Source of the DNA: Micavibrio sp.
GTDB taxonomy: Bacteria > Pseudomonadota > Alphaproteobacteria > Micavibrionales > Micavibrionaceae
DNA length: 64,000 bases
Direction: 5' to 3'
Assembly (NCBI GenBank): GCA_002687495.1
Contig: NZAJ01000066.1
Span: 1 to 64,000, forward strand
Numbering within the stretch: position 1 is the stretch's first letter; each line of letters begins with the position of its first letter. The position numbers were made by a program, and so were the translations under genes. Shown here in pieces: positions 18,749-57,418 of the stretch. The notes under the pieces were generated by a model that saw only the letters and a list, made by a program, of their open reading frames with translations, was not told where the DNA came from and did no database searches.

Positions 18749-18882
18749 GCAGCAACAAAGTTGAAGCATAAAAGTCAAAGTTCCAATCGAAGAATTTTAG
18801 GCATTCAGCGAGGCGCAAGGAACGCCGCGTAGTTAACCTACGCAAGTGACGCAGCAACAAAGCTGAGGCATAAAAGTCAAAG
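18749..18882. repeat. Imperfect 32-base direct repeat between yajC and the M23 gene
   Basis: GCAGCAACAAAG and GCATAAAAGTCAAAG mark two copies, 18749-18780 and 18851-18882, which agree at 30 of 32 positions. The second copy is the right end of a full palindromic repeat element (18810-18868); the first looks like a truncated copy lacking the palindrome. The second copy ends two bases before the stop codon of the M23 gene. Confidence 0.8.
18810..18868. repeat. Short interspersed palindromic repeat, copy 1
   Basis: Reads GAGGC, 17 bases from its start to the palindrome GCGTAG-TTAAC-CTACGC (18827-18843), then 12 bases to AACAAAG at 18856. The same layout recurs at 44701 and 57341. It lies in the intergenic space between the M23 lipoprotein gene and yajC. 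Confidence 0.7.
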
Positions 18883-18884
18883 AT

Positions 18885-19880
18885 TTAGAGGTATTGCTTG
18901 GGGTTGATAGCGGTCGTCCCACGCCTAACCTCAAAATGAAGTTGCGGCGTATCAACCGAGCCTGTCTGCCCTACAGTGCCGAGCATTTGCCCGCGGCTAA
19001 GCACATCTCCGCGATTAACATTGATCTTATCCAAATGCCCATACGCCGTCATCCAGCGATCTGAGTGCCTAACCAAAACGAGGTTCCCCATCCCTTTAAG
19101 CTCACTACCTGCATAAACCACCACACCATTTTCCGCGGCTTTCACACTCGAGCCGCGTGCAGCGCGAATATTCACCCCATCATTATGAAGGCCGTTTTTC
19201 TTTGTCCCATAGCTAGAGATAATCTCCCCATCAACTGGACGTAAAAAACGTGAAGAGCTACGCTTTGGTGGCTGAGTTCTGACAGCAGAGGGTTTTGATT
19301 TACTCGCGCTCGATGCAGGCACATCACTCACCACAAAATCCTGACTATTTTTTGAAACACCAGCTTTGCTCGCTGTCGCTAATCTCACAGGACTATAACC
19401 AGCACTCGCTTCTTCTGGTGTTACACGCGGTAATTTTAAACTTTGCCCCGGCGTTATCACATATGGTGCAGGCAAGCCATTCACAGCAATCATCTTCTCT
19501 GTGCTCACCCCAAAGATCTGCGCCACTGTCGATAAGCTGTCACCCGTGCGCACACGATATGTTGGCGGCGGCGGCAGTTTCAAGCGTTGCCCCGGCGTAA
19601 TGCGATAAGGCGCTTCTATGTGATTAGCATAGGCCAAATCTTTCAAAATCAGATTATAACGATGCGCAATACTATACATCGTTTCATCTTGCTGAACGAT
19701 ATGAACCCCGCCACTGCCCTCGCCTGCGCTTGTTCCATAAATCGTCACAGGCACATGCGCAGGCTTATCACAGCCGCTTAAAAATAATGCTAAAATCGCC
19801 GAAGATAAAATCAATGACCTCATAGACAATACTATAACGCCTGCACCTTTCTTTTTCCAAGGGGCAAAAAAGCCTTGCAT
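18885..19880 (-). CDS. LysM / M23-family lipoprotein, NlpD-like
   Basis: Envelope protein of 331 residues. A hydrophobic stretch ends in the lipobox LFLSGC near residues 33-37, so it should be an outer- or inner-membrane lipoprotein. Two LysM domains follow (HIVQQDETMYSIAHRYN near residue 60; YRVRTGDSLSTVAQIFG near residue 108), then a Ser/Lys/Pro linker and an M23 (LytM) domain (GEIISSYGTKKNGLHNDGVNI, YGHLDKI, LHFEVRRG). The first zinc-ligand position HxxxD reads HNDGVNI and the last histidine is kept in QLHFEV, but the complete zinc set is doubtful, so it may be an amidase activator like NlpD rather than an active peptidase. AAGGGGG precedes ATG 19880; ATG 19823 would give a shorter signal peptide. 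Confidence 0.93.
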   Translation of the reverse strand: MQGFFAPWKKKGAGVIVLSMRSLILSSAILALFLSGCDKPAHVPVTIYGTSAGEGSGGVHIVQQDETMYSIAHRYNLILKDLAYANHIEAPYRITPGQRLKLPPPPTYRVRTGDSLSTVAQIFGVSTEKMIAVNGLPAPYVITPGQSLKLPRVTPEEASAGYSPVRLATASKAGVSKNSQDFVVSDVPASSASKSKPSAVRTQPPKRSSSRFLRPVDGEIISSYGTKKNGLHNDGVNIRAARGSSVKAAENGVVVYAGSELKGMGNLVLVRHSDRWMTAYGHLDKINVNRGDVLSRGQMLGTVGQTGSVDTPQLHFEVRRGTTAINPKQYL

Positions 19881-19929
19881 CTATTTACCCCCTTAGTTTA
19901 GAACATGCGCAAAATCTTAAATGACATAA

Positions 19930-20115
19930 ATGGCGGTAACCATGACAAACGATAAAAAACTCTCACAAGAGACTTTCCCAGAACAAGTAGAAAACAACCA
20001 AGCCCCTACATCTAACTCATGGTTAGATAGTGAAACGCCTGGTGCATCAGAAAATGAACTCACTTGGGAAGAAGAAGGCAAAACCCCTCACATAAGTCCA
20101 GCCTTAAATAACTAA
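19930..20115 (+). CDS. Small hypothetical acidic protein
   Basis: Not recognised. The product has at most 61 residues and is acidic and polar (NELTWEEEGKTPH), without membrane segment or signal peptide. ATG 19930 or ATG 19942 could be the start; GGCGG lies before the second. It is divergent from the M23 lipoprotein gene and convergent with pcm, with only four bases between stop codons. The tight fit between neighbours and ordinary codon use favour a real gene, but evidence is modest. Confidence 0.45.
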   Translation: MAVTMTNDKKLSQETFPEQVENNQAPTSNSWLDSETPGASENELTWEEEGKTPHISPALNN

Positions 20116-20119
20116 CGCC

Positions 20120-20812
20120 TTAAGCGCCAGCCATTTGGCTGCGCGCTTCTGCATCTTCTGCAATATCAGGCAGCAACGGCACAAAGCGCACAGGCATAAC
20201 ATCACGAACGCTATAAGCTTCCTCTGTTTCTTTCTTATAAAGCTTAAGCACCTGCTCGCCGCTAGGCCCCACAGGAATAATCATCATCCCGCCAACGCGC
20301 AACTGATCCAGCAGTTTTTGTGGTGGTTTATCCTTCGCTGCAGCAGTCACAATAATCTTATCAAATGGCGCTTGCTCAATGCCATGCATCTTAGGCCAGC
20401 CCTTCATACCATCCGCAGCTAACGCCGTAACATTACGCAACTTCAAAGCCTCAAAGCGCGCCTCAGCATGCTCTAACAAATATTTATGACGCTCAATCGT
20501 ATAAACGCGCCGACATAGCTTGCTTAAAATCGCGGTCTGATAGCCGCACCCCGTTCCAATTTCCAAGATTTTATCACGATCCGAAATCTCAAGAACTTGG
20601 CTCATCATACCAACAACGACTGGCTGGCTGATTGTTTGCCCGCGCCCAATCGGCAGCGCCATGTCATCCCACGCCTGATCCTTCACAGCATCCGGTACAA
20701 AAAAATCACGTGGCACGCGCTCAATCGCACCCAACACATTCGCATCACGAACCCCCTTCGTGCGCAAATCCATAACCAAGCGAATGCGTCTATTAATATC
20801 TTGTGTATTCAT
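20120..20812 (-). CDS. pcm: Protein-L-isoaspartate O-methyltransferase
   Basis: Repairs isomerised aspartate residues in damaged proteins using S-adenosylmethionine. The protein has 230 residues. The SAM-binding motif ILEIGTGCGYQTAILSKL is near residue 79, and the family landmarks VPRDFFVPD, LPIGRGQTISQP and GGMMIIPVG are all present. In relatives pcm sits between surE and an NlpD-like gene. Here the M23 gene is next downstream but surE is absent; the upstream neighbour is a DUF4153 membrane protein only 21 bases away. Confidence 0.96.
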   Translation of the reverse strand: MNTQDINRRIRLVMDLRTKGVRDANVLGAIERVPRDFFVPDAVKDQAWDDMALPIGRGQTISQPVVVGMMSQVLEISDRDKILEIGTGCGYQTAILSKLCRRVYTIERHKYLLEHAEARFEALKLRNVTALAADGMKGWPKMHGIEQAPFDKIIVTAAAKDKPPQKLLDQLRVGGMMIIPVGPSGEQVLKLYKKETEEAYSVRDVMPVRFVPLLPDIAEDAEARSQMAGA

Positions 20813-20833
20813 GCACTCACTATACGCTTAGGA

Positions 20834-22642
20834 TCATCGGACTAACAATATAAAATCGATGCCATTGATCAAAAGTTTTTCATCCGGTCCATATTTCCCA
20901 TGTATCCGCTTTATCAGCAGTTTTCCATGCTCGCCCAGCGGCCACTCAGCTTGCTCTAATTCCTTAAACTCATTCGCCAGCACTGATTTCTCTATAATTG
21001 GCCTTAAGGGCAATCTCACCGGCGCTTCGCCATCAAATGTAAAGACAAACTCATTATCTTCAATCTGCGCAGTAACAAAGCGCTCTGGCTCTTCTGTGCG
21101 CGCAGCCGCTAGCGTCCATTTATACGATTTAGGCTTTCGATCAACGCGCGCATTGTAGTGAGATTGCAGCGCATATTCATACCCGTTTACATTAAACAGA
21201 ACATCAGAAGCAAAATTGCCCAAAAGGAAAGACTTCTCTGCGGAGAGCGATTTTTCAGCATCATATTTCGATACAAATTCAATCCCCATCATCTTCGTCG
21301 CTTCGCTGACATTGAAATATTGTGCATTTTCCCTGCCCTGAAATTCAAACCAGTCATGGAGTTTTTTAATATGAGCACGATGTGATAAATAGCTCAAACG
21401 AGAGGATATCTCGCGGCGATCTTCAAATGACACATTGCCCTGCACTTTAACGATCTGACCATCTTGCAATATATTGTTTTTAAGCAATAGCGATTCTAAA
21501 CGTGCGACTTGCGAACGTTCAGATACATTCACCGCACTTAAAGGGCCTAATCCACCAATAAACAATAGCACCGACAACACAAACAGCATCAGATGCATTT
21601 TTACAGGGGCTTTTCTAATCTGCGCACTCAGCGCATAGGCAATACAGAATACAAAAAATACGGCTGACAGCCCGACAAGATAGCGCTGCTCCGTAATCCC
21701 ATATGCTCCAATGCGTTGTGACAAAGACAATATTTGCATCCCTACAGGCAGAATCAACAGCATAAACAAATATTTATGCATAAAGCGAATGACAAAACTG
21801 CCGCTTTCACGCAGCGGATAGCTCATAAAATAGGTAACGATACCTACGCCGGCAAACCCCATAGTCAGGCTGGATAAAACACCCTTTGGCATCTGCCCCT
21901 CTATACCGACCTTCACAAAATACGCATATAAAATCAGCAGATAAACAAAGCTAAGCGGCCCTAAAACCCAGTTAATTATAAAGTTTACCTGAACGGGCGC
22001 GCGGCATTCCTCATCATCATAATCAAACTTATCCGGCACCCATGACAACGCATAAAGGGAAGACAAAAGTCCCATCGCCACAACCCAAATATCAAAGAAA
22101 TACTTACCGCTAACTTTCAAGCCAAACAGCATATTCACTGCCCCAAGTGCGGCGCATGCCCCCACAGCCCATATAAAACCCGCCGAAATAGACAGTAAAA
22201 CACCAAGCCATGTTTTGGAATTAAACGCCCAATAAGACAGCGCAGAACGCCCCTGCCCCAGATACCCCGCCACACTGATCAAGGCGATACATGCAGGCAA
22301 AGCAAGCGCAGAAAAATAAATTATTTTAATGTGCGGAGAAGCCGCTAACATGACAAATAGTATCGCCATTACAGCCACACTGGCTAAATAATAAAACTTA
22401 TCACCACGCCCATTAGACCATTGATAAAGCCGCACCGCCCCTGACCAGAAGAAACCAAGAACCAAAACATAGAAAATCCTGGCGAGCACTAATTTATCAA
22501 ATGAAGCCGTCAAATCATGATTAAGTAAAAAACCAAGCATAGTCGCCAAACATGCGCATACGGCACTTACTGGAAAACGAATAATCGTTCCCTGCATTCT
22601 ATCTAATGGCAATAATTTCTTAAATAACCCAGCCATACTCAT
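20834..22642 (-). CDS. DUF4153-family multi-pass membrane protein
   Basis: Inner-membrane protein of 602 residues. About ten hydrophobic segments fill residues 20-375 (for example FYVLVLGFFWSGAV and FIINWVLGPLSFVYLLIL), and the final 220 residues are soluble and mainly beta. The pattern YAYFVKVGIEGQMPKGVLSSL followed by YFMSYPLRE matches the DUF4153 family, whose function is unknown. Two start codons are close together (22642 and 22636); GGGAAG lies nine bases before the second. It occupies the position between pcm and serS where relatives often have surE. Confidence 0.8.
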   Translation of the reverse strand: MSMAGLFKKLLPLDRMQGTIIRFPVSAVCACLATMLGFLLNHDLTASFDKLVLARIFYVLVLGFFWSGAVRLYQWSNGRGDKFYYLASVAVMAILFVMLAASPHIKIIYFSALALPACIALISVAGYLGQGRSALSYWAFNSKTWLGVLLSISAGFIWAVGACAALGAVNMLFGLKVSGKYFFDIWVVAMGLLSSLYALSWVPDKFDYDDEECRAPVQVNFIINWVLGPLSFVYLLILYAYFVKVGIEGQMPKGVLSSLTMGFAGVGIVTYFMSYPLRESGSFVIRFMHKYLFMLLILPVGMQILSLSQRIGAYGITEQRYLVGLSAVFFVFCIAYALSAQIRKAPVKMHLMLFVLSVLLFIGGLGPLSAVNVSERSQVARLESLLLKNNILQDGQIVKVQGNVSFEDRREISSRLSYLSHRAHIKKLHDWFEFQGRENAQYFNVSEATKMMGIEFVSKYDAEKSLSAEKSFLLGNFASDVLFNVNGYEYALQSHYNARVDRKPKSYKWTLAAARTEEPERFVTAQIEDNEFVFTFDGEAPVRLPLRPIIEKSVLANEFKELEQAEWPLGEHGKLLIKRIHGKYGPDEKLLINGIDFILLVR

Positions 22643-22869
22643 TCACTTCCCCATTTATTTTTTTAATTACCATTACCAGCTATTATACATATCCACTAAG
22701 TGAACACAAAGCAGTTAAACTATTACAGCGACCTTAAAACCCCTCGTATTTTCTGACTTAAAATTGGCATTTTTATGTTGCCACGCAGCATTTAAGAGAA
22801 AACTAAATTAAATCAATATTATTATCCACAGAATCCCCATAAAAATAAAAGAACCCTTTATATACAAAT

Positions 22870-22898
22870 TTGACAAATAAAATTTCAACTTATATAAA
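22870..22898 (+). promoter_or_regulatory. Strong sigma70-type promoter of the 63-residue gene
   Basis: TTGACA at 22870-22875 and TATAAA at 22893-22898 are exactly 17 bases apart. Start of transcription is expected near 22905, giving a leader of about 120 bases before the ATG at 23028. Confidence 0.75.
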
Positions 22899-22922
22899 AA
22901 AGTACTTTTTGTCATAGGCGAT

Positions 22923-22968
22923 AAATTCGAGCAAAAATTCGAGCTAAAAATTCGGGCCAAATTCGAGC
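22923..22968 (+). repeat. Four tandem AAATTCGAGC-type repeats in a 5' leader
   Basis: Copies lie at 22923-22932, 22935-22944, 22948-22957 (ATTCGGGC variant, with AA before it) and 22959-22968. Their start-to-start spacing is 12, 13 and 11 bases. They fall downstream of the predicted transcription start, so they would be in RNA as well as DNA. Confidence 0.8.
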
Positions 22969-23027
22969 TAAATTTATGACAGAGGTTTTTTTGTAAAATC
23001 AACCTTAACGACGAAAAGGAAAAACAA

Positions 23028-23219
23028 ATGAAACTATCTTCGGCAAGCTCCCTTGTAAAAGCAATCGATAAACGTGGCGAAGCTCTTGCAGCTTTTGGCG
23101 CAGCAAAAGATCGAGGCATAGAAGAGCGCATGAACGCTATCACTGCAGACGCTCCTAAAGCAGGCTCTGGACCAAGCAGCACAGCAAAGTTCGCTCCAGC
23201 TGGTCCAGGCGGATCTTAA
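23028..23219 (+). CDS. Small hypothetical protein, 63 residues
   Basis: Not recognised. The protein is basic at the start (MKLSSASSLVKAIDKRGEAL), alanine-rich in the middle and ends in a flexible Gly/Pro/Ser tail (TAKFAPAGPGGS). There is no membrane segment. AAGG lies eight bases before the ATG and a consensus promoter lies 130 bases upstream, so expression is likely to be high. The four leader repeats suggest regulation at the RNA or DNA level. Antisense frames over this gene lack such signals and are taken to be shadows. Confidence 0.75.
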   Translation: MKLSSASSLVKAIDKRGEALAAFGAAKDRGIEERMNAITADAPKAGSGPSSTAKFAPAGPGGS

Positions 23220-23250
23220 AACCAACAATCATTATTGTGAATATCTTCTT

Positions 23251-23283
23251 TTAAGTCAGGCGCAAATTTGCGCGCCTGCTTAA
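23251..23283 (+). terminator. Hairpin after the 63-residue gene
   Basis: TTAAGTCAGGCGC and GCGCCTGCTTAA pair with a single bulge; an inner palindrome GCGCAAATTTGCGC overlaps. No T-run follows, so it may be a processing or stability hairpin, not a terminator. Confidence 0.45.
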
Positions 23284-23337
23284 ATATATGGTAAATACAA
23301 AAACACACGGATAGTTGAGTATATAGGAGAACGAATA

Positions 23338-23778
23338 ATGCGTAGAACAAATCAACCGACCTATTTCGGGGAAGGTCATTGGGGCCGTAGTGAAACATCT
23401 GGCCTACTTCACGAACAATTCAAACATGTAGCGCAAGTCTTTGAGAAGTTCGTAGGCTGGAGCAAAGAACATGGCGTTGACCTTAACGGCTATGGAAGAG
23501 CAGTGTTCGAACATGTTCATACTGGCGAGAAATCAAGTGCATCTATCGCACAGATCAGAGCATCCTTGCAAAATGGTGATCTAACGCCTCACGATCAAAA
23601 ACTATTGCAAGAAGCGCATGACCACATAGATTCACCAGCTACTATTTCCAAACGCGAGGCAGCAGCCAAAAAAATTGTGCTGCATGTTGTCCAAACGCCT
23701 CAAGAACACCCACAAGACGCTACAGAACAACCCACCCAAATTGTAAGAGAACAGTCGCAACCTGCTGTTAATATTTAA
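23338..23778 (+). CDS. Hypothetical protein
   Basis: Not recognised. A soluble protein of 146 residues. The start MRRTNQPTYFGEGHWGR is followed by a helical region (LLHEQFKHVAQVFEKFVGW) and another near residues 70-115; the tail is Gln/Pro-rich (EQPTQIVREQSQPAVNI) and probably disordered. TAGGAG lies eight bases before the ATG. It is 118 bases downstream of the 63-residue gene on the same strand with a hairpin between. A perfect hairpin follows the stop codon. Confidence 0.7.
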   Translation: MRRTNQPTYFGEGHWGRSETSGLLHEQFKHVAQVFEKFVGWSKEHGVDLNGYGRAVFEHVHTGEKSSASIAQIRASLQNGDLTPHDQKLLQEAHDHIDSPATISKREAAAKKIVLHVVQTPQEHPQDATEQPTQIVREQSQPAVNI

Positions 23779-23800
23779 CAATCATACCCACCATATACAA

Positions 23801-23820
23801 ATCCCCGCTTGCGCGGGGAT
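23801..23820. terminator. Perfect hairpin between convergent genes
   Basis: ATCCCCGC and GCGGGGAT form an eight-base stem with loop TTGC. It lies between the 146-residue gene and the end of serS, so it may end transcription from both sides. T-tracts are short. Confidence 0.65.
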
Positions 23821-23868
23821 GGTAGAGTCTTAAAACTAGCCGCTATATTTGCAGACCATTTACCTCAG

Positions 23869-25140
23869 CTATTTCGTGATCTTCTCGATCCCGCCCATAT
23901 ATGGCTTAAGAACCTCTGGCACCACAACCCCGCCATCTGCTGGATCGTAATAATTCTCCATCACAGCAATCAGCGCACGACCAACAGCCACACCGCTCCC
24001 ATTCAGCGTATGCACAAAGCGCGTCTTTTTCTCACCCTTAGGACGGCAACGCGCATTCATACGGCGCGCCTGAAAATCCCAACAATTAGACACAGAAGAG
24101 ATCTCACGGAAAGTCTCCTGCCCCGGCAACCACGCTTCAATATCATAAGTCTTACGCGCGCCAAACCCTGTATCGCCGCTACATAGCTTCACGGTGCGGA
24201 ACGGAATTTCCAGCTTTTTCAAAACTGTCTCCGCACAGCCTAACATGCGCTCATGCTCCGCTTCGCTCTCATCCGGCGTGGTCACAGACACCATCTCAAC
24301 CTTATAGAATTGGTGCTGACGGAGCATCCCGCGTGTATCACGCCCAGCGCTTCCCGCTTCTGATCTAAAACATGGCGTAAACGCACAGTAACGACGCGGC
24401 AAGCTCTCCTCATCGACAATCATATCAGCAACGATATTCGTCAGCGGCACTTCTGCTGTAGGGATAAGGAAGTGCTCAGTCTCACGTGTAGAGAACTGAT
24501 CCTCCGCGAATTTCGGCAACTGTCCTGTGCCATAGAGTGCATTATCACGCACAAGCAGCGGCGGAGACGTCTCAACATAACCATGCTCGCCAGTGTGGGT
24601 ATCAAGGAAGAACTGCGCAATCGCACGTTCCAAACGCGCCAAACCACCTTGCAGCATCACAAAGCGAGAGCCGCTCATCTTCGCAGCCGTCTCAAAATCC
24701 ATCAAACCCAGCTTCTCGCCAATATCATAATGCTCAACTTTATGATCCGTGCGCGGCTCGCCAAATGTGCGCACCTCGACATTATCATCTTCATCCGCAC
24801 CTTCCGGCACATCATCCGCCATAATATTCGGCAAGCCTGCAAGCACATCATTTAGCTCCTGCGCGACGACGCGCTCAGCCTCTTCCAGCTCGCCCATACG
24901 CGCCTTCATCGCCGCAACAGCATCCATAATCTCTTGCGCATCACCGCCTTGCGCTTTCACTTTTCCGATCTCTTTAGATTTAGCATTACGCTCAGACTGA
25001 ATTTCCTGTAGCTCAGTCTGCAAAGAACGGCGCTTTTCATCCAGCGCTAAAATAGCCGCCGACTGCCCTTCCAAGCCTCTGCGTCCCATCGCCTTATCAA
25101 AATCACCCGCATTTTCGCGTATATATCTAATATCGTGCAT
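23869..25140 (-). CDS. serS: Seryl-tRNA synthetase
   Basis: Class II aminoacyl-tRNA synthetase of 423 residues that charges tRNA-Ser. The N-terminal coiled-coil arm spans about residues 25-105 ([20 protein letters not shown]). Motif 2 is [29 protein letters not shown] split over the usual loop, and motif 3 is [19 protein letters not shown]. The catalytic core reads [15 protein letters not shown], and the end [11 protein letters not shown] is normal. It belongs to the same strand as the pcm-yajC-secDF backbone but is separated from pcm by about 3 kb. Confidence 0.98.
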
Positions 25141-25218
25141 TCTTTACCTCTGTAATATAATCTCGAGCGGAGCCTAGCCGAGTGGAGAGATCTTATCAAC
25201 TATGGAATTTACATTCTA

Positions 25219-25288
25219 ATGGAGTTGCTGAGGTATATTTGAAAATTGTTGCAACATATATAAGTCTCTATTCTCATTCCAACTCCAT
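25219..25288. repeat. Nine-base inverted repeat upstream of serS
   Basis: ATGGAGTTG at 25219-25227 and CAACTCCAT at 25280-25288 are exact inverted copies 52 bases apart. They lie between the divergent starts of serS and the N-formylglutamate amidohydrolase gene. Function unknown. Confidence 0.5.
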
Positions 25289-25376
25289 ATATGTAATAAG
25301 CTAAGAACCTACACTAATATGTGAATATTGGTAAAGAGACTATTCAATACACATATAAAAATATAGACTTAGATCT

Positions 25377-26258: not shown

Positions 26259-26260
26259 AT

Positions 26261-26289
26261 TTGACATATTGCAAAAACCTCTATATGTT
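26261..26289 (+). promoter_or_regulatory. Promoter of the 194-residue hypothetical gene
   Basis: TTGACA at 26261-26266 and TATGTT at 26284-26289 have 17 bases between them. They begin three bases after the stop codon of the upstream gene. Confidence 0.6.
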
Positions 26290-26317
26290 AGGCAAATAAT
26301 TATTAGGGAGAACAATA

Positions 26318-26902: not shown

Positions 26903-26936
26903 TAAAGCGTAAATTAACGGCATAGATTCATTGATC

Positions 26937-28935: not shown

Positions 28936-28962
28936 AAGTTTTCTCGGCCACACCATTTAAAA
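28936..28962 (+). pseudogene. Decayed copy of the tRNA-Leu 3' end
   Basis: GAAGTT followed by TTCTCGGCCACACCAT repeats the T-arm and acceptor end of tRNA-Leu (28761-28790) with six T-loop bases missing and a G-to-A change in the acceptor arm; the similarity continues a few bases past CCA. It cannot form a working tRNA. Confidence 0.7.
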
Positions 28963-28964
28963 TT

Positions 28965-28990
28965 AAAGCCCCATAAGGGGCTTTTTATAT
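28965..28990. terminator. Bidirectional terminator
   Basis: AAAGCCCC at 28965-28972 pairs with GGGGCTTT at 28977-28984, followed by TTTTTATAT on the plus strand and preceded by A-rich sequence serving the minus-strand gene that ends at 28998. Confidence 0.8.
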
Positions 28991-28997: not shown

Positions 28998-30056
28998 TTA
29001 AAACTCGTAATTATATGCTTTTGCACATTTACTCTCATTCAACCATCTATGCTGCCTACTATTCAAACCTGAACGCGGAACAAGTCTTTTGAACAAATCC
29101 TTATCCATACAACGTGCGTTTTGCTTATATGAAGGTGCACTAATAAGCGCTAAATATAAATCTAGCGCATTATTGCTGTCCTTATCGTAAGATCGACTAT
29201 CAATCCCCCTATCAAGAAGATATTTAATAGCCTTCTCAGAATCAGCTTGTGATGCCCCATCACTTATAGATATTGGGTTAAAACCAACGGCAATAGCAAA
29301 GTGCAAAAGAGAAGCATTCAGCTCAGCATCTTTTAAATCAATATCAAGGTTCGCCACAGCCGCTTTATAATCGTTTATGCTTCTGCCACCTCTGATAATC
29401 ATACGATTAAGAACATTTATATCATTGCTATGCATATAGTGTAGCTGAGTTAAATCCCCCTTCTTAAAACCATCCGTTTCTTGATAGATAGGGTAAGCTT
29501 CATGTGGGTAATCAAAGCTGTATATTTTTTCACCAGATCTTTTGGGTGTATCCGCCTGTTTATTTGTTTTATAGGGATTAACCAACTCAGTAGGCTGCGC
29601 ATGTTTAACGGGCTGCTCTTTTTGCTCCCCGCTACTCTTATACGGGTTAACTAACGCTGTAGGTTGTTCACGTTCTAATGACTGCTGCTGTGGCTTTTCC
29701 GCTTCTTGATTAGATTTATATGGGTTAACCATTGAAGTAGGAGCAGTATATGTTGATGGCTCTTGCGCTTTAGGTCGATATTGCGGCTTGTCATCACAGC
29801 TATTTATCACGCCAATAACAACAGCTGCAAAACAAAATGCACCAATTAAGCCACCACCTTTACCCGAACTAGCTTTTCGCACTGATTTAACCTTAGGATT
29901 TTGAACAGGCTGTTGCTTTGGCGTGTTCCCACCATTACCCCGCATATTCTCATACATCTTAGACATCTCATCGCGGTAAAGCTGCTCTTCGCCGCCAGGC
30001 GTTCCAGGAGTACGATCCTGCGCATTCCTAAACCATTTATCAGTCTCATTAGACAT
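28998..30056 (-). CDS. Membrane-anchored protein with three VNPYK repeats and an ankyrin-like domain
   Basis: Not a recognised family. The protein has 352 residues. Residues 1-65 are polar and cytoplasmic in character; one membrane helix (GGLIGAFCFAAVVIGVI) lies near residues 68-84. Then come three copies of a motif built around VNPYKS (MVNPYKSN, LVNPYKSS, LVNPYKTN), 28-30 residues apart in a Gln/Glu/Lys/Pro-rich stalk. The C-terminal half contains ankyrin-like helices (LHFAIAVGFNPIS, KYLLDRGIDSRSYDKDSNNALDLYLAL). ATG 30056 is chosen with AGGGAAGG upstream; GTG 30065 is possible. The stalk is probably periplasmic and the repeats may bind a partner. Confidence 0.7.
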   Translation of the reverse strand: MSNETDKWFRNAQDRTPGTPGGEEQLYRDEMSKMYENMRGNGGNTPKQQPVQNPKVKSVRKASSGKGGGLIGAFCFAAVVIGVINSCDDKPQYRPKAQEPSTYTAPTSMVNPYKSNQEAEKPQQQSLEREQPTALVNPYKSSGEQKEQPVKHAQPTELVNPYKTNKQADTPKRSGEKIYSFDYPHEAYPIYQETDGFKKGDLTQLHYMHSNDINVLNRMIIRGGRSINDYKAAVANLDIDLKDAELNASLLHFAIAVGFNPISISDGASQADSEKAIKYLLDRGIDSRSYDKDSNNALDLYLALISAPSYKQNARCMDKDLFKRLVPRSGLNSRQHRWLNESKCAKAYNYEF

Positions 30057-30225
30057 AGCCTTCACCCTTCCCTAAGCTAATCAATCAACAAAGAGCATTT
30101 AAACACCTATTACGTCTTGCCGATCTACATACTTTGACTAAATTTAATTATAGAAAACAAATACTGAGTTTTAAAATGACTGTCAACTTAAAGCTGAATC
30201 AACAACAACTAAGCACCATATAAAG

Positions 30226-30250
30226 CTAAAGCCCCGTGAGGGGCTTTAAT
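30226..30250. terminator. Hairpin terminator
   Basis: TAAAGCCCC at 30227-30235 and GGGGCTTTA at 30240-30248 form a nine-base stem with a four-base loop. It follows the minus-strand gene ending at 30287. Confidence 0.7.
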
Positions 30251-44463: not shown

Positions 44464-44709
44464 ATGAGTGAAGCATTAAAAAATATCGACACAATGTCAT
44501 TTGAAGAATCTCTAGGCGAGCTAGAAAACATCGTGCGCTCACTAGAGAGCGGACAAGCCCCTTTAGAAAAATCTATCGAAAGCTATGAGCGCGGCATCGC
44601 GCTAAAAAAGCATTGCGAGAAAAAGCTCGGCGAAGCCCAAGCTAAAATTGAAAAAATCACGGCTGATAAAAGCGGCCAATTATCAACCCAGCCTCTAGAT
44701 GAGGCATAA
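44464..44709 (+). CDS. xseB: Exodeoxyribonuclease VII small subunit
   Basis: Small partner of XseA, 81 residues. [20 protein letters not shown] followed by [32 protein letters not shown] is the family signature. Its last residues DEA and the stop codon lie inside the second palindromic repeat element, so the repeat supplies the C-terminus. No Shine-Dalgarno is present; the promoter placement predicts a leaderless transcript. It is followed by ispA, the usual neighbour. Confidence 0.96.
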
Positions 44710-44760
44710 GGAGCGAAGTGTATAAATATACACGAGCAATCGAATAACAACGTAAGAAGA
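44701..44760. repeat. Short interspersed palindromic repeat, copy 2
   Basis: GAGGC at 44701, palindrome GTGTATA-AA-TATACAC at 44718-44733, AACAACG at 44746. Spacing to the palindrome is 17 bases as in the other copies. It covers the end of xseB and the xseB-ispA gap. Confidence 0.7.
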
Positions 44761-44776
44761 CAATTTAGGAAAAAAA

Positions 44777-45691
44777 ATGCCATCACCACGTTCAGCATCC
44801 CCAAAACTCCAAGCCGCTCTCGATGAAATCGCAGATGCAGTAAATCTAACGATTGAGCGCCTACTCCCAGAGAGTGAAGATGCTGAGAGCCAATTATACG
44901 ACGCTATGCGCCATGGTACGCTCGGCGGCGGTAAACGTCTTCGCCCTTTCCTTGTGATGCAATCTGCCTTCCTTTTCAACGTGCCCTCTTCTCGCGCGCG
45001 CCGTGTTGCAGCAGCTCTAGAATTTGTGCATTGCTACTCACTTATTCACGATGACTTACCAGCAATGGATGACGCAGCTCTTCGCCGTGGTCAGCCAACT
45101 GTTCACAAACAATATGACGAAGCCACAGCAATCTTAGCTGGCGATGCGCTTCTCACGCTTGCTTTTGAAATCCTAGCTGAGCCGGAAACACATGAAGATC
45201 CACGCGTGCGCTGCCACCTTATCAGCGCGCTTGCAAAAGCTTCAGGCGGTCATGGTATGGTGGGCGGTCAAATGCTCGACCTCATCGCTGAGCGTGATGA
45301 TGTAGAATTTGATGTTGGCGAAGTCTCTCGCCTACAGCGCATGAAAACTGGAAAGCTTATGGCTTTTGCTTGTGAAGCAGGCGCGATCCTTGGCGGCGCA
45401 GGCGAGCCACAACGCAAAGCACTATGTAACTATGCCCATGATCTCGGCCTAGCCTTCCAAGTGACTGACGATATTTTAGACGTTGAAGCCGATCCGCAAG
45501 ATACAGGTAAAGACACAAATAAAGACGAAGACGCCGGCAAAGCCACATTCGTTTCGACAATGGGTAAAGAAGCCGCAAAAGCGCGCGCAGATATGCTTGT
45601 TGCACAAGCAAATCGCCACCTCAAAATCTTTGAAGGCCGCGCCGATATGCTGAAAGAACTCGCAGAATATGTGCTAGAACGCCGCGCTTAA
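44777..45691 (+). CDS. ispA: Polyprenyl synthetase, farnesyl diphosphate synthase type
   Basis: Condenses IPP with allylic diphosphates. The protein has 304 residues. The first aspartate-rich motif is SLIHDDLPAMDDAALRRG near residue 92, with the two extra residues typical of bacterial FPP synthases; the second is QVTDDILDVEAD near residue 230. Other landmarks are GTLGGGKRLRPFLV and GGQMLDL. TAGGA precedes the ATG. It follows xseB. In many alphaproteobacteria dxs comes next; here a 7.5 kb accessory block lies between. Confidence 0.96.
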   Translation: MPSPRSASPKLQAALDEIADAVNLTIERLLPESEDAESQLYDAMRHGTLGGGKRLRPFLVMQSAFLFNVPSSRARRVAAALEFVHCYSLIHDDLPAMDDAALRRGQPTVHKQYDEATAILAGDALLTLAFEILAEPETHEDPRVRCHLISALAKASGGHGMVGGQMLDLIAERDDVEFDVGEVSRLQRMKTGKLMAFACEAGAILGGAGEPQRKALCNYAHDLGLAFQVTDDILDVEADPQDTGKDTNKDEDAGKATFVSTMGKEAAKARADMLVAQANRHLKIFEGRADMLKELAEYVLERRA

Positions 45692-48386: not shown

Positions 48387-49526
<1,140 letters not shown>

Positions 49527-49572
49527 CTAAAATAGCTCATAGCCTAAAAATCACAAGTACAGTTTATAAACT

Positions 49573-50922: not shown

Positions 50923-50923
50923 T

Positions 50924-50960
50924 AAAAAACCCCTTATATTTGCAACAACTATAAGGGGTT
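50924..50960 (-). terminator. Terminator-shaped hairpin overlapping the Shine-Dalgarno of the HExxH gene
   Basis: On the minus strand AACCCCTTATA (50950-50960) and TATAAGGGGTT (50928-50938) form an eleven-base stem with an eleven-base loop, followed by TTTT before A and the TTG start. It would end the upstream 75-residue gene's transcript; its 3' arm also holds AAGGGG, the likely ribosome binding site. Confidence 0.8.
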
Positions 50961-50993
50961 AACGTTAATTTTATGTAAAAATTATAGATATAC

Positions 50994-51221
50994 TTAAAGC
51001 TTACACTTTAAAGCATCAACGACTGGCCAATAAGTAGTTCTCTCTGGCTTACCATATCGAGCCTCAACTTCTTCATAGTGCTCATCATAGCCAGAGGGCT
51101 TTTCTTGCTGAAGAGCCTCAATATTGTATTCGTTGCTAAGAGCGTTTTCACTCTTAGTAGAGGCAATCCCATTACGTGCACTACCCCAAAAACCGCTTAA
51201 TATATTATCCGTATGTCTCAT
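50994..51221 (-). CDS. Small hypothetical protein
   Basis: Not recognised. From ATG 51221 the product has 75 residues, polar and charged (EEVEARYGKPERTTYWPVVDAL), ending in KCKL. No membrane segment. The ribosome binding site is weak, and an in-frame GTG at 51242 would add seven basic residues. It is followed on the same strand by a terminator-like hairpin and the HExxH gene. The intergenic space to the chemoreceptor gene is about 115 bases. Confidence 0.5.
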   Translation of the reverse strand: MRHTDNILSGFWGSARNGIASTKSENALSNEYNIEALQQEKPSGYDEHYEEVEARYGKPERTTYWPVVDALKCKL

Positions 51222-51335
51222 GCGCCGCTTAGTGCCACACACAATCCATTATGTCAACGATAAAAACGAATTTATGCTATAAAATAATTAACAAAAGTCA
51301 TTAAAAATAACAAAAGCACTAATTTCAACGACTTA

Positions 51336-53069
51336 CTAAGCCGCTTTAGTTTCGTGTCTCATCTTCTTAAGCAAAGCATCGACCGCGCCTTGTAAATTAT
51401 CACAAATCTGAGCCATTTCCTTAGAAGCATCAAGCACTTCATCCGCAGATTTACCTGTATCACCAGCACTAGATTGTACATCCTGGATAATAGAAGACAC
51501 CTGCTGCACCCCTTGCGATGCCTCAGAAATACTTCTCACAACTTCGCTTGTTGTCGTATTTTGCTTTTCAACAGCACTCGAAACACCTGTAACAGATTGA
51601 TCAATATCAGAAATATTATTCATGATACTTTCCATCGCCCGCACAGAAGCTTGCGTTGCATTTTGAATTTCACTAATGCGCGAATTAACCTCCTCAGTTT
51701 TACTAGCAGTCTCATTCGCTAGCTTCTTAACCTCATCCGCAACAACAGCAAAGCCTTTACCCGCCTCACCAGCACGTGCTGCTTCAATCGTAGCATTCAA
51801 GGCCAATAAATTCGTCTGTTCTGCAATATCAGAGATCGCTGTCACAACCTCACCAATATTCGCAACAAGCGTATTCAAATTCTGAACAGTATCATTCGCA
51901 ACATTGGCATTTGAAGCCATATCACGAGACTTGTTCTTAACACTACCCATCTGAGCGCTAATCTCACTTGAAGACGCTGACATTTGCTCCATAGAAGAAG
52001 CCACATTATTCACATTAGAGCTAGCCACCTCAGACGTTGATGACACAACCCCACTCGCCTGCATTGTGCTATCAGCAACATTTCGCATTTTATGCGCGGT
52101 TGAGTGCAAATGCCCGGAAGCAGAATTCATCGTTTTCAACACATCACCGATCTGCTTTTCGAACTCATTAGAAATATCCTGCACGATAGCGACACGCTCT
52201 CCCTCAGCCTGTCGCTCAGCCGCGCTATGCTCCGCTTCTCTTCGTTCAGCTTCAATTGCATTAGCTTTAAAAACTTCCAAAGCTTTAGCCATTTCACCAA
52301 GCTCATCCTCACGATCAGCACCGACAATCTCTACATCCATATCACCATCAGCCAAGCGGTGCATTTGCTTTGCTGCTCTATTAATCGGTTTTGACAATGC
52401 AAATTTAAGGACAAAAACACATATAATAATCGCGATTAGCATAATACCGAAAGCTGTAATAAAGATTGTCTGCGTTACTTCCGCCTTCGAAGTCAGAAAC
52501 ACATCTTTCAACAAACCAACATAGAGAATACCTACAACGTCATTTGTGCCTTTTGCAAAAATAGGATCATAACGTGTAAAATACGGCTTACCTAAAATAA
52601 CAGCTTCACCAACAAAGTTTTCACCTTTTGTCAAAAATGGGTATACAGCCCCGCCCTTACCTAGCGGTGTTCCCACAGCTCTATCGCCGTTATCCTTAAT
52701 AATATTCGTCGTTTTACGCCAAAAATCCTGCGTCTCTTTATCCCATAAGAACAACGTCGCTGTTTGTCCGGTAATCTCACCAACAGAATCGATAATATTA
52801 TGATTAGAAAATTCAGGCAGATATTCCAAAACAAATCGCTTTTGACCATTCGCAGCCCTCTCAATTTCAAAACCATCCAGATCACGCTCAAAGACCGCAG
52901 CAGCAACATTAATATTCTTGTTTTGATCTTCCGTCACCGCCCCTTTAAGCACAGCCTCTACTTCACTCTCTACGACAAAAATCATAGACACGCCCATGAG
53001 CAGCAACATACAGAAAACAAAAAACGTAACTTTATGCGATAGTTTCACGCGATTAATCATTGAAAACAT
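51336..53069 (-). CDS. Methyl-accepting chemotaxis protein with Cache sensor
   Basis: Transmembrane chemoreceptor of 577 residues. TM1 ([20 protein letters not shown]) is followed by a single-Cache-like periplasmic domain ([48 protein letters not shown]), TM2 ([21 protein letters not shown]), a HAMP domain ([21 protein letters not shown]) and the signalling domain with hairpin tip [35 protein letters not shown]. The tip glutamate set for receptor trimerisation is kept. ATG 53069 follows GAGGGG. No other che gene is nearby. Confidence 0.95.
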
Positions 53070-53247
53070 TGGTCCCCTCAATCTGGTATATGTACGGCAC
53101 TCATTGGCCTGCAGAATTAATTTAATTAGAGTAGAATAATATTATCTCACCTCAAAGGTTAAAACGCCGTGAATACAATTAAATTCACGTCCTTTATTAC
53201 AAAAAACTTTGCTTTTTACCCCTGAATATGAGTAAAACATCCAGACC

Positions 53248-55209
53248 ATGAAACAGCAGGCAGACATAAATACAAACGATCAGGATAAAGCAATCGATGA
53301 GGCCAATGCCCCAACGCTTTCAAATGCCCTTCCAAACGCCATACTGGATCATGTAAATATCCCCGCTGATATGAAGGGTCTAACAGACGAACAGCTTAAG
53401 CAACTAAGCAGTGAAGTGCGTCAAGCAACCATCGAAGCTGTTGCCAAAACAGGCGGACATCTCGGTGCAGGCCTAGGCGTGGTTGAGCTTACCGTCGCTA
53501 TTCATGCTGTCTTCGATACACCGCAAGATAAACTCGTTTGGGATGTTGGCCACCAATGCTATCCGCACAAGATTTTAACTGGACGCAAAGACCGTATAGA
53601 TACTTTGCGCAAAGGCGGTGGGCTTTCTGGCTTCACCAAACGCTCAGAAAGCGAATATGACCCGTTTGGTGCAGGCCACAGCTCAACCTCTATCTCCGCG
53701 GCACTCGGCATGGCCGCAGGCCGCGATATTAATGGCGATAACACCCACATGATTGCCGTTATCGGTGATGGCTCAATGTCTGCGGGCATGGCCTATGAAG
53801 CGCTTAATAACGCTGGTGATATGAAATCCCGCCTGATCGTTATTTTGAACGACAATGAAATGTCCATCGCACCGCCCGTTGGCGCGATGAGCAAGCACCT
53901 CACGAAAATGGTAAGCTCTAAAGGCTATCGTAACGTTCGCGATATGGGCAAGAAAATCACTGAGGCTCTCCCCTCACCGATCCGCCACGCGGCTAAACGT
54001 GCCGAAGAAGGCGCACGCGTTGCCATTGGCGGCGGCTCATTATTCGAAGAGATGGGCTTTTACTATATTGGCCCAGTGGATGGTCACGACCTTGACCAGC
54101 TCCTTCCAATCCTGCGTAATTTGAAAAACAGCCCTAACCATGGCCCCGTTCTCATCCATGCGCGCACACAAAAAGGTAAAGGCTACCTCCCTGCAGAAAA
54201 CTCAACCGATAAAATGCATGGTGTGAAAAAATTCGATGTTATCACAGGCCAGCAAGCAAAGAGCGCCCCTTCCGCGCCAAGCTACACTGGTGTTTTCGCT
54301 GAGCAGCTTATCAAACAAGCAGAAAAAGACGATAAAATCGTGGCCATCACAGCCGCTATGCCAAGCGGAACTGGCCTTGATAAATTCGCCTCAAAATTCC
54401 CTGATCGCTGTTTTGACGTCGGGATAGCCGAGCAGCACGCCGTCACATTCGCGGCTGGCTTAGCCTCAGAGGGTCTAAAGCCTTTCTGCGCGCTATATTC
54501 CACATTCCTTCAGCGCGGCTATGACCAGCTTGTACACGATGTCGCCATTCAAAACCTACCTGTGCGCTTTATGATCGACCGCGCAGGGCTTGTCGGCGCA
54601 GATGGTGCAACCCATGCCGGCAGCTTTGATATCGCTTATCTAGCCTGCCTACCAAATATGACACTCATGGCCGCCAGCGACGAAGCTGAGCTCGCCTATA
54701 TGGTTGATTTCGCCGCCCAGTATAATGGCGGGCCACTCGCCCTTCGCTACCCACGCGGCAATGGCTTAGGGCTAGAAATCCCGAGCAATACTTCAGGCCA
54801 AATCACACTCGGCAAAGGCCGCGTTGTACATGGTGATGCAAACGCTAAAGGCGATGTCGCGATCCTATCTTACGGCACGCGCCTACAAGAATCGCTAAAA
54901 GCCGCAAAAATGCTTGAAGAAAAAGGTTTAAGCGTCACTGTCGCCGATGCCCGCTTCGCCAAGCCGCTCGATGAAGCGCTAACCCGCAGCCTCGCGCAAA
55001 ATAACAAAACACTCATCACTCTCGAAGAAGGTTCCCGCGGTGGCTTTGGCTCAATCATATTAGAATATCTCGCTAATAATGATCTATTGAGCGATCTAAA
55101 AATCCGCACACTCACCCTACCCGACTATTTCCAAGATCATAACGATCCAGAAAAACAATATGAAGAAGCTGGCTTGGTTGCGCAAAATATTATCGCTCAA
55201 CTCAAGTAA
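53248..55209 (+). CDS. dxs: 1-deoxy-D-xylulose-5-phosphate synthase
   Basis: Thiamine-diphosphate enzyme starting the MEP pathway. The protein has 653 residues. [34 protein letters not shown] near the start, the TPP motif [18 protein letters not shown] near residue 172, [18 protein letters not shown] near residue 388 and [18 protein letters not shown] near residue 445 are all intact. About 30 extra N-terminal residues precede the conserved start. Separated from ispA by 7.5 kb of other genes; no thiamine riboswitch is seen upstream. Confidence 0.97.
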
Positions 55210-55333
55210 GAAACGCCACCTAATACTATTGCATTCTTACTTCAAAAAAGCATAATATACTGTGCTAAGGCATAGTAATCACACAATAAATCCATTGCTG
55301 AACCCCACCCAAAAATGCGATAATCAAGAAAAT

Positions 55334-56587
55334 ATGAAAAAAATCACGCAAGCACAGCTAAATGAGGTTATAAAACTCCACCGCATGTTTTTGATGGGGA
55401 CATCAGGCGGCATTCGCGCCGTTTTAAAATTCCACGACCTTTCAGACCTCGATTTCAGCAAAGCCAATCTATCAAACGCAGATCTTTCAGGCTCCATATT
55501 AAATGGCGCAAATCTCTCCCTAGGTGATTTCAACAACACAAACTTCTTCTCCTGCGATTTGTATAAAACAGACATGCGCGGCAGCAACTTCACACGCGCA
55601 GATTTTCGCGGCACACAAATCCTTGGTGCCAATTTAAGCAAAGCCGATATGAAGGGCGTAGATTTTCGCCAAGGCTTTATCATGAATTATGATACCGAAG
55701 ACGCAGATAGCGGATGGTCCCGCACAGGAGAAACACTCTTTAGTGGCTCCAACATTCGTGACACGAACATGTCCAATATCATGGCACAGCGCACGAATTT
55801 CACAAATGCCAACCTTCAAGGCGTAATCCTGAATGATGCCAACCTCGAAGGCTCGAACTTCACAGGCACAAACCTCACAGATACAGACCTCTCTGGCAGT
55901 AACCTCGCCAAGGTGAATATGCACAACTCCGTCCTGCAAGGCACAGTGGTTCTCGGCGTAACAGGTGACATCCCTATCATCCAAGAGATGAAAGACAAAC
56001 AAGAAAGCCGCAAAAAAATCGACCGCGAGCTTGCTAATATCAACACCCTTATCAGGCTTCACACTCTATGGATCGATACCGCAGGTAAAAAAGGCAAACA
56101 GCTTAATTTAAGCGGCTACAACTTAAGTAAGGAAAATGATATCCGCAGATATCCCCTTACCCTCATCGTTGCAGATAATTGCCAATTTATTGGCCTCAAC
56201 TTGCATGGCGCAATGATGCAGAGCTCGATTTTGGATAATTCAGACTTCCAAGATTGTAGCGCCCGCGACTCAGACTTCCGCGGCTCATCATTTAAAAGCG
56301 CCAAATTCACCCGCGCCGATCTTCGCAACGCTAATTTCAGCCACCTTAAAGTACAAAAAGGCGGTAAAAGTATCTTCCAGCCTGTAGATTTAAGCGATGC
56401 AGATATGAGCTTTACGAACATGGAAATGGCACATTTTGAAGGTGCTAATCTTAAAAACACCAATTTTGCCCACGCTAATTTAAGGAATGTCGACTTCACA
56501 GGCGCGCAGCTAGAAGGTGCCAATTTTGAAAAAGCCGACCTGACCGGCGCTATTCTAAGTGACACCATCATTGAAGGCAAAGCTTAA
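55334..56587 (+). CDS. Pentapeptide-repeat protein with two modules
   Basis: Protein of 417 residues. Many A(D/N)LXX pentapeptides form right-handed beta-helices in two blocks: residues 30-200 and 285-417. Each block is preceded by a similar helix (LNEVIKLHRMFLMGTSGGIRA and INTLIRLHTLWIDTAGKKGKQ), implying internal duplication. A short helical linker (EMKDKQESRKKIDREL) lies between. Function unknown; some relatives mimic DNA or bind gyrase. ATG 55334 has a weak Shine-Dalgarno; GATAAT nine bases upstream hints at a near-leaderless message. A GTG at 55262 is possible. Confidence 0.88.
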   Translation: MKKITQAQLNEVIKLHRMFLMGTSGGIRAVLKFHDLSDLDFSKANLSNADLSGSILNGANLSLGDFNNTNFFSCDLYKTDMRGSNFTRADFRGTQILGANLSKADMKGVDFRQGFIMNYDTEDADSGWSRTGETLFSGSNIRDTNMSNIMAQRTNFTNANLQGVILNDANLEGSNFTGTNLTDTDLSGSNLAKVNMHNSVLQGTVVLGVTGDIPIIQEMKDKQESRKKIDRELANINTLIRLHTLWIDTAGKKGKQLNLSGYNLSKENDIRRYPLTLIVADNCQFIGLNLHGAMMQSSILDNSDFQDCSARDSDFRGSSFKSAKFTRADLRNANFSHLKVQKGGKSIFQPVDLSDADMSFTNMEMAHFEGANLKNTNFAHANLRNVDFTGAQLEGANFEKADLTGAILSDTIIEGKA

Positions 56588-56603
56588 CACCTCAATAACA
56601 AAC

Positions 56604-56632
56604 TTGACAAAATAAGAATATATTCATATTAT
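56604..56632 (+). promoter_or_regulatory. Consensus promoter implying a leaderless mRNA
   Basis: TTGACA at 56604-56609 and TATTAT at 56627-56632 are exactly 17 bases apart; the ATG begins six bases later at 56639. Initiation should fall at the start codon, and no Shine-Dalgarno can be present. Confidence 0.7.
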
Positions 56633-56638
56633 AGCGAT

Positions 56639-56959
56639 ATGAACAATATATACAAACCCACAAAAGCAAACAATATCAACCAACTCACCGATACTCTAAA
56701 ACTATCACAGAAAGAGAAACCAGCCTCAGAGACAGAGCTTTTATCGCATCAGGCCAATATCTTAAACAATCTTTTTGAAAATATAGCTTTAGAATATCTC
56801 ACAAATCCGCCAGCGCCAGACCGCTATGCAGAAAGCCAACAACATTGGCTTGCCCTAGCCCTTAAAGCGCAACAACTGACAACGCAGGCCATTAAGGCCA
56901 GCGCGTCTGTAGATTATATGAACCACCTGACACCCCCACCCCCTCCCCCCAAAAAGTGA
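56639..56959 (+). CDS. Hypothetical protein, upstream member of an overlapping pair
   Basis: The protein has 106 residues. SETELLSHQANILNNLFENIALEYL followed by ALALKAQQLTTQAIKA resembles short uncharacterised alphaproteobacterial proteins that, as I recall, often occur with STGPKTAEGKA-type proteins; I have no family name. The tail is PPPPPPKK, encoded by a C-rich tract of three near-pure runs. Its TGA stop overlaps the next gene's GTG start as GTGA, a standard coupling arrangement. The promoter predicts a leaderless transcript. Confidence 0.75.
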   Translation: MNNIYKPTKANNINQLTDTLKLSQKEKPASETELLSHQANILNNLFENIALEYLTNPPAPDRYAESQQHWLALALKAQQLTTQAIKASASVDYMNHLTPPPPPPKK

Positions 56960-57213
56960 CGAGCAATATGACGAATCCTAAAAACAAAACAAAAAGAAGA
57001 CCTTACCCTGAAAAATATAAAAAAGAACGCGCCATTCTTATTAGAAAAACAAAACCATGGGAGCATAGCACTGGCCCCAAAACGGCTGAAGGGAAAGCAA
57101 AAGTTAGCCAAAACGGCTTAAAACACGGGGCACGCTCGAAAATTTTCACTGAGTTACGCGCCGCTTTATGTGCACAACAGCGAAGCTTAAAACGCTATAG
57201 GCTCGACTTATAA
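56956..57213 (+). CDS. Hypothetical basic protein, downstream member of an overlapping pair
   Basis: Protein of 85 residues, strongly basic at the start (NPKNKTKRRPYPEKYKKERA). HSTGPKTAEGKAKVSQNGLKHGARS is a recurrent motif of uncharacterised bacterial proteins. GTG 56956 overlaps the upstream stop by four bases; ATG 56968 is an alternative start. The basic charge suggests nucleic acid binding, which is inference. The end reads AQQRSLKRYRLDL. Confidence 0.75.
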   Translation: MTSNMTNPKNKTKRRPYPEKYKKERAILIRKTKPWEHSTGPKTAEGKAKVSQNGLKHGARSKIFTELRAALCAQQRSLKRYRLDL

Positions 57214-57312
57214 TGGCTGTCATGTTTAGATTTAACTTTATGAATTAATTAAAATAGATAAATGACAACCACTATTTTTAGATTTGATAACGCCGCGCAG
57301 AACAGCACTCAA

Positions 57313-57418
57313 GATAATGTCATGAGACTGCCATTAATACGAGGCGCGACAAGCGTGGCGTATGCATATACGCGAGCGCGTCGCAACAAAGTAGGAAGGG
57401 CGTTCCCATGACATTATC
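57313..57418 (+). promoter_or_regulatory. Twelve-base inverted repeat enclosing a palindromic element at the HAD gene start
   Basis: GATAATGTCATG (57313-57324) and CATGACATTATC (57407-57418) are exact inverted copies. The right arm contains the ATG of the HAD gene. Between them lies the third copy of the palindromic repeat. In RNA this could fold over the start codon. Confidence 0.6.
57341..57399. repeat. Short interspersed palindromic repeat, copy 3
   Basis: GAGGC at 57341, palindrome GCGTAT-GCAT-ATACGC at 57358-57373, AACAAAG at 57385. Spacing to the palindrome is 17 bases. Its right end forms the Shine-Dalgarno region of the HAD gene (GAAGGG). Confidence 0.7.

Follow-up and report, generated by a model that had tools for sequence, protein, structure and literature searches.

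The 64,000-nucleotide stretch analysed here (the window; positions 1 to 64,000 of contig NZAJ01000066.1 from Micavibrio sp.) carries three copies, A, B and C, of an imperfect palindrome, or hairpin, of about 100 nucleotides (nt). The palindrome belongs to an element family that is scattered through Micavibrio-like genomes and those of some further Alphaproteobacteria. Within the Micavibrio-like group copies lie in near-fixed orientation relative to GC skew, and in about two-thirds of them the 3' end lies at the edge of a coding sequence (CDS) or tRNA gene. With a G-rich leading strand assumed, the + strand of the element has lagging-strand sequence, that is, it is on the leading-strand template. 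Orthologous junctions exist with and without the element, and their intergenic lengths often fit insertion. We propose, with about as much belief as doubt, that this is a non-autonomous mobile hairpin family, akin in kind to miniature inverted-repeat transposable elements (MITEs) and repetitive extragenic palindromes (REPs) without being a REP, which is inserted by a replication-coupled, strand-specific route.

Architecture and distribution of the hairpin family

The preliminary description of the window had picked out three repeats of 59 bases, each with GAGGC placed 17 bases, start to start, before a central stem. All three lie where it put them and keep that spacing; they are all on the + strand and form the middle part of the element. 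The core was drawn correctly and its extent was not: most copies carry two flanking arms of about 20-25 nt whose sequence varies, yet the two arms of any one copy are mutually complementary, as seen in both alignment and folding. The whole element is palindromic, with terminal inverted repeats. The GAGGC of the window copies becomes nAGGC across the family, for which the consensus reads tagtC...TTTtgACaAGGCaCaAGgagCGaAGCGTA-loop-TACGTaAGcgaCGaAGcAACGcaGT...Gacta. The ends are TAGTC/GACTA or variants of these, and CGTC was found only within the core, on the - strand.

Two covariance models were used, both with rough E-values: R1, made from the three window copies alone, and R2, made from 29 whole-hairpin copies. 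R1 gave 14 matches in the genome from which the window comes, window copies included, and hit 20 of 37 genomes with that one counted (E <= 1 throughout). Such a return from a three-copy model indicates a repeat beyond chance, and the further copies anticipated by the preliminary description are present. With R2 (E <= 0.1) the seven genus members searched, G000 (the window's own genome) to G006, hold 18, 24, 0, 24, 11, 38 and 7 copies respectively, and twelve further relatives, picked for having R1 matches, hold 1-28. The genome with zero R2 matches, G002, is 96% complete, though the other genus members searched have 7-38. Across the class, 23 of 240 genomes drawn, under 18 family labels, matched at E <= 0.001 with stricter filters, and a focused search of ten of these genomes returned 7-27 matches each. 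In an alignment of 34 distant matches (31 from these ten genomes and three from titled contigs), itself fitted to the model, the 32 pairs and the architecture are kept, 90.1% of 1080 cells are paired and covariation is 0.757 against 0.206 for shuffled data. A pattern scan of titled genomes found at least 119 stretches, and among the 80 listed, 77 are titled Alphaproteobacteria, Micavibrio, Paracaedibacteraceae or Rhodospirillaceae. The rest of those listed are WPS-2 (L295, 2884-2996), Staskawiczbacteria (L280, 3194-3313) and an unplaced bacterium (L306); these may be mis-binned contigs, with transfer the alternative for L295 and L280. Copy A as a query found no similar DNA in plasmids or phages, and viral contigs did not contain the pattern, which recovers just 16 of 106 known copies.

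The changes that the preliminary description had read as compensatory hold up as such on this larger scale. In 106 copies aligned to R2, double changes occur at 31 of the 32 model pairs and 90.9% of 3368 cells are paired, against a shuffled mean of 63.9 and 27-40% in slid controls, figures that lean towards the model because the alignment was fitted to it. A smaller set of 31 copies has double changes at eight of nine model pairs. The fixed spacing is also a property of the family, the gap from AGGC to the stem being 12 nt in 96 of the 106 copies (equal to 17 from start to start) and that from the stem to AAC 11-12 nt in 103. Over all 106 copies, pairing drops to background more than 4 nt beyond the usual ends. 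Nine copies were folded, and the best went far beyond their shuffles (L051, z -11.4; L029, z -8.4; copy C, z -5.9), with copies A and B moderately better than theirs (z -2.0 and -2.4).

The basal pair of the inner stem (57/80) favours G.T, which stands in 45 of the 106 copies with A.C in two, and the outer arms have 108 G.T against 46 A.C; core pairs other than 57/80 have no such asymmetry (20 against 24). This leans towards the + strand as the folded strand and does not decide between RNA and single-stranded DNA. The G.U excess was also considered as proof of RNA and dropped, as it comes from a single core pair plus the outer arms, the other core pairs being without it.

Orientation relative to replication and position beside genes

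The relation of orientation to replication is an addition to the preliminary description. It was measured on 104 copies scoring at least 35 bits in the fetched stretches, which comprise 80 of 185 planned copy windows, taken by genome and score and not at random, and 20 segments of G027:C1. The + strand lies in negative local GC skew in 95 of these copies, the rule holds in 67 of the 68 copies where |skew| >= 0.1, and agreement is 96 of 104 when the element and 300 nt on each side are masked. By genome, agreement is 15/16 in G000, 9/9 in G001, 12/15 in G003, 16/16 in G005, 17/17 in G010, 10/10 in G015, 12/17 in G016 and 4/4 in G027. Neighbouring copies on one contig are concordant in 92 of 103 pairs from 18 genomes and, within 10 kb, in 36 of 37; doublets in inverted orientation are limited to one close pair, G000:C49. 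The window itself has a skew of -0.18 overall, negative in every 8-kb block, and copies A, B and C are all +.

Two contigs contain the change of skew sign. On G027:C1, where skew was sampled over half of the contig, the sign changes near 450 kb and the orientation flips between 426 and 567 kb, with seven of seven copies in agreement; mnmE, rho, hemH and hemE stand at 440-460 kb, and this set of genes marks the usual origin neighbourhood in Alphaproteobacteria (the oriC-hemE rule). On G037:C1 (1.33 Mb; 20 sampled segments, each of 20 kb) positive skew gives way to negative at about 580-630 kb, and all seven copies before this are - and all eight after it +. Among titled records, skew taken over stretches of up to 8 kb predicts the orientation of 103 of 120 copies; these counts use 100 of 119 pattern loci and treat L319-L338 as new, yet at least L320 and L334 coincide in place with G010 copies.

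The orientation is not accounted for by gene strand, since the rule is obeyed by 42 of 42 copies beside opposite-strand genes as well as by 48 of 57 beside same-strand genes; of the called coding bases, 54% (869,826 of 1,612,404) fall on the leading side. Genes were called by a simple script and not taken from an annotated record. With a coding density of 87%, none of the 104 copies lies wholly within a called CDS, and arms can overlap gene ends. In the 99 copies that could be tested (five had no neighbour on one side), the 3' end falls -12 to +10 nt from a CDS or tRNA edge in 64, of which 26 abut a same-strand CDS, 30 an opposite-strand CDS and 8 a tRNA gene; the 5' end is at a gene edge in 11, against 22.8 expected on each side if copies were placed uniformly in the gap. 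Together with the replication-bound orientation, this 3' preference suggests a tendency of the element to lie just past a gene in the direction of fork travel.

The covariation and the favoured G.U pair would suit a transcribed cis-acting RNA, whether leader, terminator or attenuator. The right arm contains a Shine-Dalgarno-like motif in 13 of the 26 same-strand copies at a CDS edge against 2 of the 30 opposite-strand ones, a bias which suggests that this arm may serve as a ribosome binding site. However, the strand of the 3'-side neighbour is near balance (57 same, 42 opposite), all 42 opposite-strand copies keep the replication rule, and nothing was found at the copies in Rfam (whole window and nine loci; an ffh match below its cut-off adjoins a copy in L031). 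As the strand of the element tracks replication and not the neighbouring gene, a transcribed role is disfavoured and we consider it highly improbable.

Strict orientation may instead arise after insertion. Copies could enter in random orientation and be lost, through cutting or deletion, when the hairpin-forming strand lies on the lagging-strand template and is unstable or harmful there, leaving the tolerated orientation. Long palindromes are sensitive to replication, the + strand is nearly always off the lagging template, and it would fold better than its complement at pair 57/80 and in the outer arms. The other core pairs lack this asymmetry, however, and most of the stem can form on either strand, so that stability by itself would hardly be expected to give an almost absolute bias; the one-sided position at gene edges is also left unexplained. 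We regard selective loss as unlikely. Unlikely too, in our judgement, are functional polar sites, KOPS-like or other strand-biased sequences whose orientation is kept by selection for a chromosome or fork process. Such sites would account for the strict orientation and for a structure that persists in distant Alphaproteobacteria (90.1% of cells paired over 32 pairs), and AIMS and KOPS are likewise strand-biased along the chromosome. In the account of PMC5993296, however, these are octamers on leading strands, richer near the terminus, whereas the element is an inserted, structured unit of about 100 nt, with lagging-strand sequence on its + strand; it is patchy within the genus (0-38 copies, with none in G002), and its junctions are often empty in relatives.

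Insertion, candidate enzymes and related elements

Junctions were compared by their flanks in fetched stretches of different genomes. The 65 comparisons gave 8 with and 8 without the element in the genus, and 13 with and 36 without it more widely; the pairs are non-independent, some being counted from both sides, some rest on low identity, and presence is inflated because target windows were chosen for holding elements. One pair, L136/L120, was scored as absent although an apparent degenerate copy stands there. At the junction orthologous to that of copy A, no element was seen in G001, G003 or G016. The gap minus the element is often close to the empty gap (41 against 27, 50 against 47, 6 against 16 and 47 against 31), and other junction pairs differ widely in gap length. 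Deletion of intergenic DNA up to the gene upon insertion was considered and dropped, because element-less gap lengths often resemble empty gaps. A consistent direct repeat or target word was not seen in the flanks, of which the right is A/T-rich and C-poor, the empty sites being too diverged for base-by-base alignment.

The preliminary description had called the repeat REP-like or RNA-structured. It is an interspersed palindrome of conserved structure, as that implied, while REP membership is not upheld and, as set out above, a transcribed role is disfavoured. The element resembles REPs of the GTAG and CGTC families in being an extragenic, strand-asymmetric imperfect hairpin dispersed in many copies, and a CGTC-1 REP family is reported in Micavibrio aeruginosavorus. 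As described in PMC3733652, REPs are 20-40 nt long with a terminal GTAG or CGTC tag and a cognate REP-associated tyrosine transposase (RAYT). The element is about 100 nt long and has no such terminal tag, and the mostly equal orientation of its neighbours is unlike that of REP doublets (BIME/REPIN). A true REP family moved by the RAYT (TnpA-REP) of some clade members would find support in the recognition by E. coli TnpA-REP of strand-specific imperfect hairpins with a conserved mismatch, as presented in PMC8266576, and in the occurrence of Y1_Tnp (PF01797, RAYT-type) in 5 of the 37 genomes. The RAYT gene envisaged by the preliminary description was not encountered, however: Y1_Tnp was not found in the window's own genome (90.5% complete), in six other genus members or in the element-rich G010, G015, G016, G027 and G035, and G007 is the sole element-rich genome that has it. 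A RAYT in the element's own lineage was rejected because of its absence from the searches of these seven genus members, and with length and tags that do not fit, a true REP family is very improbable. A resident reverse transcriptase as a general requirement was also rejected, as RVT_1 was not found in ten richer genomes (G000, G001, G004, G005, G007, G010, G015, G016, G027 and G035). RVT_1 is over its cut-off in G003, G006, G011, G012, G013, G014, G029 and G036, some of which, e.g. G003, carry elements.

MITEs are short non-coding inverted-repeat insertions with a target site duplication and a parent transposon that has the same ends. The element is similarly a short, non-coding, inverted-repeat insertion, but its orientation is fixed relative to replication, no consistent target duplication was seen in its flanks, and no parent transposon was identified, no search for longer elements with matching ends having been made. 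Rickettsia palindromic elements (RPEs) share with it a palindromic form, a similar size and a place in the Alphaproteobacteria; they are known, from what PMC10969869 relates, for in-frame insertion into genes, unlike the present copies, a distinction that is drawn from the description of RPEs and not from RPE sequences. Hairpins and an orientation that follows replication recall the IS200/IS605 family and its non-autonomous derivatives, and PMC5371812 describes fork-coupled orientation for IS200/IS605 and Tn7. Here there is one whole hairpin and not two subterminal ones, and Y1 was not found in most element-rich genomes. A literature search, in which the result lists were partly covered, brought up nothing, in title or abstract, on this family or on a palindromic repeat similarly fixed relative to replication.

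In the insertion route that we propose, the replication fork would offer the substrate, as an intermediate that is single-stranded or forked, and an activity supplied in trans would recognise the folded core through internal loops, such as its GA/GA mismatches, and the favoured G.T pair. The arms may then be re-matched after insertion via template switching, as copy C suggests. A more far-reaching version of this, possible but doubtful in our estimation, is that the family forms a class of mobile hairpin of its own. Its insertion would follow the fork closely enough to leave a single orientation almost without exception (67 of 68 copies at strong skew), and would take place at the gene edge from which the fork moves off; in hosts where neither Y1 nor reverse transcriptase was found, spread would depend on a novel enzyme or on the replication machinery itself through template switching.

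Several observations weigh against replication-coupled insertion of a mobile hairpin. There is no candidate enzyme, just Y1_Tnp and reverse transcriptase having been searched for, and there is no consistent target duplication or target word, the arm ends being complementary to each other. In single-stranded DNA elements of the IS200/IS605 type, the active strand enters the lagging-strand template beside a fixed target word. It is the - strand of the element that is on the lagging template, while the structural data lean to the + strand as the folded one, and the right flank is A/T-rich only; if the folded + strand is the active one, its location on the leading-strand template is opposite to the IS608 rule. 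The orientation rule is broken by 9 of the 104 copies, five of them in G016. Pair concordance is weaker in ten distant genomes (48 of 65; at stricter score cuts 24 of 33 and 12 of 18, the last not significant), being strong in G134, G150 and G219 and not in G060, G050, G148 and G255, and for the single-contig G151 a two-breakpoint test was not significant (1577 of 5000 random orientations equal it). Orientations are mixed on G040:C8 and among G039 matches below about 53 bits, and on G037:C7 one copy stands against four.

The five off-rule copies of G016, out of 17 (L198, L208, L210, L211), all have |skew| < 0.1, and it is possible that they are recent inversions or young insertions.

The window copies and the meaning of the family

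The copies and adjoining genes of the window are as follows.

18705..18783, +, degenerate earlier copy in tandem with copy A at a 102-nt period, the 3' part alone recognisable (R1 10.9 bits, E 2.1, weak)
18785..18884, +, copy A, full hairpin (core 18808-18866; R2 match 18784-18898, 91.2 bits)
18885..19880, -, M23 peptidase/DipM-like gene (below curated cut-offs of named equivalogs)
44464..44709, +, xseB, exonuclease VII small subunit (PF02609)
44677..44774, +, copy B, left arm lost (core 44699-44756; R2 match 44676-44788, 58.9 bits)
57313..57418, +, copy C (core 57339-57395; R2 66.7 bits; fold -48.7 kcal/mol, z -5.9)
57408..58154, +, HAD-family hydrolase gene, with copy C in its leader

The three settings given by the preliminary description, at a gene end, over the xseB stop codon and before the HAD gene, are confirmed. 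Copy A lies between yajC and the M23 peptidase gene, and its 3' end adjoins the M23 stop codon at 18885. A 32-nt repeat (18749-18780 and 18851-18882, 94% identical) supports the tandem copy beside it. Head-to-tail tandem pairs with a period of about 101-104 nt occur at 18705-18882 of the window and at G010:C7 15417/15519, G039:C1 349804/349908 and 379405/379506, G039:C2 148414/148516 and G039:C3 175378/175480, from which it seems that the element also duplicates locally.

The 3' end of copy B adjoins the start of the FPP synthase gene at 44777. The xseB gene ends inside its core, the TAA of which is the xseB stop codon, and the left arm is missing; this is likely to be why the copy was seen over a stop codon. 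In G001 this junction carries a copy (L023/L132) with both arms, and relative to G001 a deletion fused xseB to the core of copy B.

Copy C has an inverted repeat (57313-57340 and 57391-57418, 79% complementary) and outer arms that run 11 nt into the HAD gene, start codon included. Since pairing is generally at background more than 4 nt outside the usual ends, this copy is exceptional. The HAD N-terminus reads M-x-L-x-x-P in all nine orthologues displayed (12 were tried, three being without a motif match), and in those of the orthologue genomes on which R2 was run there was no match within 160 nt upstream of the start. It was thus probably the left arm of copy C that copied the gene's own start, as an inverted copy. 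Such copying is what template switching between hairpin arms (PMC8794818) would be expected to give, and strand bias is treated in PMC7202029.

Elsewhere in the window, a large pentapeptide-repeat protein (55262-56587, +; below curated cut-offs of the families matched) is encoded upstream of copy C, and two terminator-like hairpins, 28962-28984 and 30228-30250 (AAAGCCCC...GGGGCTTT), 87% complementary to each other, flank an open reading frame at 28998-30065.

Replication-coupled orientation has so far been described, as far as PMC5371812 sets it out, for transposons that encode their own enzyme. If our proposal is true, the family would provide a non-coding hairpin of near-absolute polarity for which two obvious enzyme families were not found, and would open the connection between fork structure and insertion to direct testing. 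Copy C seems to be a naturally occurring example of arm matching in a hairpin, one in which the start codon of the gene itself has been included, and the element could mark the direction of replication in fragmented draft genomes.

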